A stretch of DNA of 33,850 bases from Candidatus Altimarinota bacterium. Lineage in GTDB: Bacteria; Patescibacteriota; Gracilibacteria; BD1-5; UBA6164. Below the pieces are notes generated by a model. It had not been told where the DNA came from and did not search any database. It saw only the letters and a program-made list of their open reading frames with translations. The stretch is from NCBI GenBank assembly GCA_030683605.1, contig JAUXPL010000023.1, positions 1 through 33,850 on the forward strand. The letters run 5' to 3'. The stretch's first letter is position 1, and each line of letters opens with the position of its first letter. Both the position numbers and the translations under genes were made by a program. Shown here one piece after another: positions 199 through 23,775 of the stretch.

Positions 199-325
199 GG
201 TTCTAATCCCTCCCCCCTGCGGGTACTCCCTTTGTCCTAAAGGATACATTTCAATAAAAAAGGGAGAAATTTCTTCCCTTTCAAGGGAAGTACTCGAAAC
301 GCAGTGGAGAGGGATTGGATAGAAC
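199..325. repeat. Palindromic repeat family A, double copy
   Basis: A GC-richer island in AT-rich DNA. The left half carries TAATCCCTCCCCCCTGCGGG and later AAAGGGAGAAAT; the right half carries CTTCCCTTTCAAGGGAAG and GCAGTGGAGAGGGATT. Outer arms GGTTCTAATCCCTC and GAGGGATTGGATAGAACC make the whole unit palindromic. Single copies of the same family occur at 3559-3610, 11357-11428 and, inside a gene, 15292-15344. Confidence 0.75.
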
Positions 326-3558: not shown

Positions 3559-3610
3559 AATTTCTCCCTTTTTAAAAGGGAGTACCCCGCAGTGGGGAGG
3601 GATTAGAAAT
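3559..3610 (+). repeat. Palindromic repeat family A, single copy
   Basis: ATTTCTCCCTTTTT then AAAAGGGAG, CCCCGC and GTGGGGAGGGATTAGAAAT. Two nested palindromes: CTCCCTTTT/AAAAGGGAG and the outer ATTTCT/AGAAAT. It lies in the ~260-bp gap before rpoB. The rest of that gap shows only a 10-base direct repeat, GATTGTGTAA, at about 3454 and 3512. The hemW insertion at 15292-15344 is the same element. Confidence 0.75.
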
Positions 3611-7119: not shown

Positions 7120-7222
7120 AGAACCCCTCTCAATTCTCCCCTTGTCAGGGGAGATGAGGCACAAGTAAAATATTATTCCTCCCCTGACAAGGGGAGGTGG
7201 CTGAAAGCCGGAGGGGTTTTTT
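7120..7222. repeat. Palindromic repeat family B between rpoB and rpoC
   Basis: GAACCCCTCTCAATTCTCCC, CTTGTCAGGGGAGATGAGGC, then CCTCCCCTGACAAGGGGAGG and GCCGGAGGGGTTTTTT. The central arms (CCTTGTCAGGGGAG with its complement CTCCCCTGACAAGG) and the outer arms (AACCCCTC with GAGGGGTT) make a long stem that ends in six Ts. It could therefore attenuate transcription between the two polymerase genes. Related copies: 16017-16169 and a remnant at 12710-12765. Confidence 0.75.
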
Positions 7223-11288: not shown

Positions 11289-11292
<4 letters not shown>

Positions 11293-11327
11293 TCACAAAA
11301 AAACGAAACTTTAGTTTCGTTTTTTTT
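11289..11327 (+). terminator. rpoC terminator, first copy of a 39-nt direct repeat
   Basis: ACGAAACT-TT-AGTTTCGT flanked by A- and T-runs, a bidirectional-type hairpin. The 39 bases 11289-11327 recur exactly at 12239-12277. Confidence 0.9.
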
Positions 11328-11335
11328 GGCTTAAT

Positions 11336-11473
11336 CAAATTTTGGTGGAATAAAATTCTAATCCCTCCCCCTGCGGGGACTCCCTTTTGGCCCTAAAGGA
11401 TACACCTTCGGATAAAAAGGGAGAAATTATCAAATGTTATAACTATATTTTTTCTTTCTCCACCAAAATTTAG
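11336..11473. repeat. Family A palindromic repeat bracketed by a 13-bp inverted repeat
   Basis: A family A copy in reverse orientation (11357-11428: TTCTAATCCCTCCCCCTGCG through AAAGGGAGAAATTA) with an extra GGCCCTAAAGGAT loop, as in the 199-325 copy. It is enclosed by AAATTTTGGTGGA (11337-11349) and its exact complement TCCACCAAAATTT (11459-11471). The bracketing arms are unlike other family A copies and could be ends of a small non-autonomous element. Confidence 0.65.
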
Positions 11474-12238: not shown

Positions 12239-12277
12239 TTAATCACAAAAAAACGAAACTTTAGTTTCGTTTTTTTT
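12239..12277. terminator. Second copy of the rpoC terminator, shared with the converging gene
   Basis: Identical over 39 bases to 11289-11327. On the minus strand its A-run overlaps the TAA stop of the 12276-12653 gene, so it serves both directions. The original arrangement was probably rpoC and that gene converging on one terminator. Confidence 0.85.
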
Positions 12278-14839: not shown

Positions 14840-16018
14840 ATGAAAAACACTTTTTGTTATGTTCATATACCTTTTTGTACTAGTAAATGTAAATATTGTA
14901 GATTTGCTTCTTTTTGAAATATTGAATTTTTAAAAATAAATGCTTATGTTGATAAACTAATTAATGAAATTCAAAGATCTTCATATTGTGTAAAAAATAA
15001 TACATTAAAAAGTATATATTTTTGATGATGAACACCTAGTATATTAAGTACTAAACATTTAAAAAATATAATAAAGTCAATTAATGAAAAGTATATTTTT
15101 GATAAAAATATAGAAATAAATATAGAAGCAACACCAATTACAGTAACTAAAGAGAATATAAAATCACGGATTGAAATATGAATAAATAGAATAAGTATCT
15201 GAGTACAGAGCTTGAATAGAGATACATTAAAAGAAATTGGAAGATGAGAAAAATGAGATATAATCCAAGCATTAGATAATATTAATGATAGATTTCTCCC
15301 TTTTACAAAGGGAGTACCCGAAGTATGAGGGGGAGGGATTCTTAATATTTCAGTAGATTTTATTATATGATTACCACATGTAAAAAAATGAGAAATAAAA
15401 AAAGATATAGAGTATATCTTGGATAATTATGATTTCGTAAATCATATTTCTGTTTATATGCTTGAAGAATACTATGAGCAATCAGCAGTATCTAATGAAG
15501 ATTGATTATTGGATAGTAAATTTCAAAATATTGTATATCCTAATAATTGGATGAACCTATGAATAAATGAAGATGATTATTTATGAGAATATATAGAAAT
15601 AAAAGAGTATTTAAAAACTAGATGATTTATTTCATATGAGATTTCAAATTTTGCAAAACTATGATATGAGTGTAAGCACAATAATTCATATTGGAATCAT
15701 TCTAATGTGGTATGATATTGATTATGAGCTCATTCATTAGTAAATAATGTTAGATTTAGTAATAGTGAAGAATTTTTGTGATATTATATTTGAGAAAAAC
15801 AAGATTATGAAATATTAAATAATAATGATATATTTATTGAAAAGATAATGTTCTGATTAAGAACTAGCTGATTAGAAAAATACATATATGAAAAATTAGA
15901 ATACGATAAATTATTACAATTTGTAAATGATTGATTATTGTATTTAGAAGACGATGTGTTTAAATTGACTGATAGATGAGTAATGCTTTTGGATTATATT
16001 TTGAGAGAATTGATATAA
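14840..16018 (+). CDS. hemW: HemW-like radical SAM protein with an in-frame repeat insertion
   Basis: A 392-residue radical SAM protein. The N-terminal YVHIPFCTSKCKYC carries the cluster cysteines C13, C17 and C20. Next come FGGGTPSIL, the SAM-binding segment, INRISIGVQSL and SVDFIIGLP, all as in HemW/HemN-like proteins. The HNNSYWNHSNVVGYGLGAHS block supports HemW, a heme chaperone, rather than true coproporphyrinogen dehydrogenase. Residues ~151-168 (RFLPFTKGVPEVGGGG) come from a family A palindromic repeat at 15292-15344, inserted in frame just before the NISVDFIIGLP strand. The insertion sits in a loop, so the protein may still fold. A CGG codon in KSRIEIGINR reads acceptably as Arg. Heme genes are not visible nearby. 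Confidence 0.85.
15292..15344 (+). repeat. Family A palindromic repeat inside hemW coding sequence
   Basis: TTTCTCCCTTTTACAAAGGG followed by AGTACCCGAAG and GGGGGAGGGATTCTTA parallels the intergenic 3559-3610 copy position by position. It keeps the hemW frame and contributes about 17 residues. One TGA in it is read as glycine, so it would be a stop in the standard code. Confidence 0.8.
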
Positions 16019-16169
16019 CCCCTCTCAATTCTCCCCTTGTCATGGGAGATGAAGCACAAAAAAAAACTCTTCTTGAATTATTATCCTTTTTTTAGGATAT
16101 ACTACATCTTTATTACTTTTTGTAGCCTCTTTCCCCTGATAAGGGGAGAGAATTCAAGTGAGAGGTTAA
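16017..16169. repeat. Palindromic repeat family B after hemW
   Basis: Outer arms AACCCCTCTCAATTCTCCCC (16016-16036) and GGGGAGAGAATTCAAGTGAGAGGTT (given in part, to 16168) enclose GTCATGGGAGATGAAGCAC and an AT-rich middle with a TATCCTTTTTTTAGGATA hairpin. It begins inside the hemW stop and ends just before the converging HPF-like gene, so it fills their shared 3' gap. Confidence 0.7.
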
Positions 16170-23682: not shown

Positions 23683-23775
23683 ATATTTCCTCTTTCCCTT
23701 GGTAAAAGACAATGCCATTAAGTTAAGTAGAAAACTTCTTAACTTAATGGCATTGTGGTAAAAAGGGGGGGAATT
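23683..23775. repeat. ATTAAGTTAA hairpin nested in a C/G-rich repeat after argS
   Basis: Perfect 18-bp stem CAATGCCATTAAGTTAAG (23710-23727) / CTTAACTTAATGGCATTG (23738-23755), 10-base loop. It is the same arm as at 121-184. It is set between CCTCTTTCCCTTGGTAAAAG and GTGGTAAAAAGGGGGGGAA, which look like two halves of another palindromic element, so one repeat may have landed in another. It fills the argS-methyltransferase gap and may serve as an argS transcript end. Confidence 0.7.

Follow-up and report, generated by a model that had tools for sequence, protein, structure and literature searches.

A palindromic repeat lies in frame within hemW of a Gracilibacteria genome reading UGA as glycine and is probably translated as a surface loop

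Introduction

The interspersed palindromes of Rickettsia (Rickettsia palindromic elements, RPE) and Wolbachia (WPE) are found between genes as well as in frame within unrelated housekeeping genes, whose products presumably stay functional (PMC10969869, PMC2229807), and RPE are about 100-150 bp long (PMC2229807). Intragenic GTAG/CGTC REPs are short stem-loops located in ORFs of several phyla, often in those of DNA/RNA enzymes and sometimes several per gene, and in recB of two Xanthomonas species they occupy about one site (PMC3733652).

We looked at a repeat of this kind in a stretch of 33,850 nucleotides (the window) from a Candidatus Altimarinota bacterium of the Gracilibacteria, in which the long ORFs need code 25 (TGA = glycine). 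A first-pass annotation of the window had noticed an intergenic palindromic repeat translated inside hemW and had drawn a parallel with the Rickettsia elements. This parallel is apt. Like RPE and WPE, the element is a multicopy palindrome present both in intergenic regions and in frame in many unrelated housekeeping genes, at places where relatives of these conserved genes lack it. Contrary to RPE, its host is unrelated and reads UGA as Gly, most copies (41-73 nt) are shorter than the roughly 105-150 bp of the RPE class, the copies are read in more than one phase and in either orientation, and several families are stacked in one gene. The element also differs from the GTAG/CGTC REPs: by inspection it carries no GTAG/CGTC tag, its consensus starts with ATTTCTCCC and ends with GGGATT, and the genome has no RAYT. 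The suggestion that such elements had not been described in this phylum was borne out insofar as our search of the literature, covering few subscription journals, gave no report of translated palindromes in Gracilibacteria, although intragenic palindromes were already known beyond Rickettsia (PMC3733652).

Results

The hemW-like radical SAM gene (positions 14840-16018, + strand) encodes 392 aa under code 25, and the closest named HemW match belongs to an uncultured Candidatus Gracilibacteria bacterium. The element within it (read RFLPFTKGVPEVGGGGI) spans positions 15292-15340 of the same strand, ending a little before the 15344 first proposed. Its 49 nt (ATTTCTCCCTTTTACAAAGGGAGTACCCGAAGTATGAGGGGGAGGGATT) contain two hairpins, one of 8 bp at 15296-15314 (+; CTCCCTTT-TAC-AAAGGGAG) followed by a variable one at 15317-15331 (+; CCC-GAAGTATGA-GGG). 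In frame, it translates as (R)FLPFTKGVPEVGGGGI with a single TGA codon (15326-15328, +), which code 25 reads as Gly163, as the annotation had it. The element is indeed in frame, and the roughly 17 residues it was said to add become a net gain of about 14-15 when aligned with the short-loop HemW of relatives. The Radical_SAM match (PF04055, Pfam) extends from residue 7 to 192 and spans the insert. The AlphaFold model of the protein (mean pLDDT 86) has E. coli HemN as its best PDB match (1olt, E 7.8e-24) and falls below a pLDDT of 50 at residues 153-163; in this model, the insert would form a loop without order that joins helix 138-150 to barrel strand 169-176. The predicted element-derived tryptic peptides are FLPFTK and GVPEVGGGGILNISVDFIIGLPHVK.

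The assembly to which the window belongs (G000; 1.54 Mb in 57 contigs, fragmented, 96.6% complete) was then searched for further copies. BLAST with the hemW copy gave 42 matching places, and a strict perfect-hairpin pattern found 42 sites against none in the reversed control. With a degenerate pattern, 116 and 111 matches were obtained on the two strands against one on each in the control, corresponding to about 116 sites. From 69 stretches around copies, we catalogued 119 of them. The copy nearest to that of hemW (96%) is also in a gene, encoding a penicillin-binding protein (L002/L009). In the window, intergenic copies lie at 3560-3604 (+), at 205-270 (-) and 11360-11427 (-), both with a longer first loop, and at 269-316 (+), a copy of the ATTTCTTCCC subtype placed head to head with that at 205-270. 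The hemW element had been described as the same as the intergenic copies; it belongs to the same family, but those at 3560-3604, 205-270, 269-316 and 11360-11427 differ from it. Rfam gave one tRNA only in the window, and no known RNA family for the element. Six contigs of the genome (C9, C14, C31, C38, C42, and C52) end in or beside a head-to-head element pair. This indicates that the assembly breaks at such pairs and that the copy number is probably underestimated. Contig C9 is exactly as long as the window (33,850 nt), yet in the parts fetched the two are different sequences with repeat copies alone in common.

These counts bear on the simplest alternative, that the hemW segment is an ordinary lineage-specific loop extension resembling a repeat by chance or through composition bias. 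The HemW loop does vary in length without a recognisable repeat in several relatives (L045, L056, and L061). However, the segment is near-identical to dozens of copies where controls gave 0 or 1 match, and its GC content is 0.47 against 0.21 in the remaining hemW. Copy number and controls together refute a chance resemblance, and we give this explanation practically no credit.

Other repeats were seen in the window. A second family (AACCCCTCTCAATTCTCCCCTTGTCA..., TTTTTGTAGCCTCTTTCCCCTGATAAGGGGAGAG) is present at 7122-7197 and 16017-16158, one copy starting within the hemW stop codon, and related repeats are predicted to be translated as part of QueA, of PrmC, and of a radical-SAM fusion protein. 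Some copies of the element are enclosed, in the manner of a larger MITE, by terminal inverted repeats (CAATACCATTAAGTTAAGGAA...TTCCTTAACTTAATGGTATTG), which were seen at 167-198 and 23724-23755 of the window and in L014, L015, L013, and L026; the fetched stretches hold 38 matches to them. A pair of identical terminator-like hairpins of 39 nt (AAACGAAACTTTAGTTTCGTTTTTTTT) lies at 11289-11327 and 12239-12277.

The genome search also placed the element in other coding genes. About 19 copies are in frame within long ORFs, at least 16 of them in identifiable genes, so that no fewer than a dozen core genes besides hemW are affected. The hosts include GalE, PrmC, PBP1a, QueA, a PriA-like helicase, YaaA, and RNase R, and further in-frame copies are found in glycosyltransferases and a prepilin-like protein. 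The malic enzyme contains three tandem copies, the exonuclease part of PolA two in opposite orientations, and a DUF58 protein two. Pfam supports most host genes, and its domains span the insert in HemW, PBP1a, PolA, and QueA. The tandem copies of the malic enzyme (L022, G000:C11:75186-75276) directly precede the Rossmann strand KIVVNGLG, and an apparent copy lies in a type IV pilin-like leader peptide (L088, G000:C25:9257-9298), MNKRKIQS-NPSPFRHFPGKGKN-NKGFTLVEL.

The in-gene copies are read in sense and antisense and in several phases, with the frame kept in all those found. None of the 119 catalogued copies interrupts a gene so as to leave 80 or more codons on either side; the one split that was flagged is the antisense side of the malic enzyme gene, which is itself intact. 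If the frame were irrelevant, about two thirds of genic insertions would shift it, so that, judged from sequence, conservation of the frame favours translation over excision or bypass. The insert could otherwise be left untranslated, either because it is cut out of the mRNA or because ribosomes jump over it, as they do over the byp hairpins in Magnusiomyces mitochondria. Bypassing of palindromes in translation is known (PMC6649704), and here too stable hairpins lie within coding sequence. Skipping, however, makes the frame irrelevant, yet every in-gene copy found is in frame, whatever its phase or orientation, and no gene is split; moreover, the inserts vary at their ends and are located in loops, and the frame-breaking inserts that mark byp were not seen among the copies. 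We therefore consider an untranslated insert very unlikely.

Among 58 relatives, the element is patchy within the family and absent from the other families of the order. Same-genus counts were 38/43 in G002, 14/12 in G004, and 8/9 in G001, with none in G003, and a stricter pattern had a single match in 115 genomes drawn from elsewhere in the phylum. In G002, in-frame copies were found in CysS-like and MnmA-like proteins (named by eye). The HemW loop is short in most family members and most relatives lack the hemW element, in keeping with the insertion proposed at first. In both G000 and G004, the hemW element is located at the identical base with its hairpin intact, indicating that it most likely inserted before the two split. 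Since the hemW of this nearest relative is also filled, the empty site is taken from more diverged relatives with a variable loop length; for distant HemW obtained by a contig scan, the comparison is a fold alignment only.

The same segment was not found in HemW of relatives lacking the repeat family, which have either a short loop or other palindromes. In two other genera, the loop contains unrelated palindromes, each repeated in its own genome: GTCATTGCGAG...CTCGCGATGAC in G033, which resembles the GTAG/CGTC REP class, and TTCGGGGGTGGAAA...TTTTCCACCACCGAA in G023. A second HemW of G022, an assembly with 7% contamination, carries two related copies in opposite orientations in this loop (L132, G022:C40, near 40441); the other HemW of G022 is short-looped.

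Does the hemW copy have a function of its own? It might have been co-opted, whether to stabilise the mRNA, in regulation or to contact another protein, and then be maintained by selection. In favour of this, G000 and G004 both retain an intact hairpin, the element is 93% identical between them (40/43) against 83% (937/1127) for the rest of the gene, and a related element occupies the same loop in the second HemW of G022. But the excess is not significant (Fisher p = 0.095), and this equally led us to reject gene conversion or hyper-conservation of the hemW copy. Moreover, the two copies differ by an in-frame indel of 6 nt, the element is missing from most relatives, and the loop is predicted to be disordered. 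Co-option thus seems unlikely, and the insert would rather be close to neutral.

Filled and empty sites could be compared directly in two other proteins. RNase R has 833 aa in G000 and 741 aa in G004, with a C-terminal part that is 88% identical, and the length difference corresponds to palindromic inserts, four or five in number and from different families (QDQPHPSPLLRGEGIEG; INLPFSKGVPEGGGI; SPHPSPLPKGEGID followed by SSLPLGETEGG...; PPSHGGEGARGGG). In G002, RNase R has a different repeat (GPPPNTLLSKAGE) at the beta-hairpin that bears a G000 insert. QueA has 393 aa in G000 against 356 in G004, and it contains two inserts that are missing in G004, G002, and G001. Most of the other-family inserts of RNase R and QueA fold as hairpins and have more copies in the fetched stretches.

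Codon use sets the inserts apart from their hosts. In 17 in-gene copies, the ratio of TGA to GGN glycine codons was 4:46 against 354:197 in the remainder of their host genes (p = 2e-15, two-copy genes being counted twice in the host background), and GC content was 0.49 against 0.25. The hemW gene has five GGN glycine codons, four of which fall inside the element. The preference of in-gene copies for GGN, where host genes mostly use UGA, is the mark of unadapted inserts. Recoding of a stop had been thought to make such insertions easier to survive. The gain is small: 274 of 336 element frames (82%) are open in the standard code and 306 of 336 (91%) in code 25, mainly owing to one antisense phase. 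In-frame TGA is present in five of the 19 in-ORF copies and absent from the other 14, and we rejected recoding as the key enabler. UGA recoding might thus help insertion slightly, without being required.

Discussion

Altogether, we are confident that the hemW segment is a non-autonomous hairpin repeat, inserted in frame, spreading in this lineage, and presumably translated as a surface loop. According to this scenario, a repeat of about 41-73 nt with two hairpins would spread through the genomes of the lineage, and it would have entered hemW before the split from the sister species G004. There, it would be transcribed and translated as a flexible surface loop of the radical-SAM barrel. Genic copies would last only where frame and fold survive, at tolerant loops, and selection would purge the other genic insertions, leaving most copies intergenic.

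Movement would depend on a factor acting in trans. Like REPINs, the element forms hairpins and some head-to-head pairs (205-270 with 269-316; others in C57 and C52). Unlike RAYT-mobilised REPINs, it resides in a genome in which no Y1 transposase (Y1_Tnp, PF01797) was found, a missed copy being possible at 96.6% completeness. Among the 58 relatives, Y1_Tnp does not track the repeat, and it was rejected as the mover. The element is small, non-autonomous and able to fuse in frame to genes, as are MITEs such as Correia/NEMIS and ERIC. It departs from them in its termini, ATTTCTCCC and AATCCCTCC, which are inverted only imperfectly. In a small test of 13 copies, two had a target-site duplication where 2.06 were expected, which gives no signal.

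Translated palindromes as such have been described before, RPE and intragenic REPs being examples. What is new here is the code-25 host, the presence of several families at once, and the reuse of the same loops. Protein-coding palindromes are thereby extended, at high density, to a recoded lineage of the candidate phyla radiation. Before-and-after pairs among congeners, together with independent insertions in the same loop, make neutrality, movement without a visible transposase, and the seeding of new protein functions testable. A caution follows for automatic gene and loop annotation in such genomes, which takes in selfish DNA. Family-wide, we tentatively propose, at somewhat less than an even chance, that unrelated repeats re-enter tolerant loops (those of HemW in three or more lineages and of RNase R in two congeners) as an ongoing, genome-wide source of protein novelty, and that core proteins within the genus may differ mainly by loops of selfish DNA.
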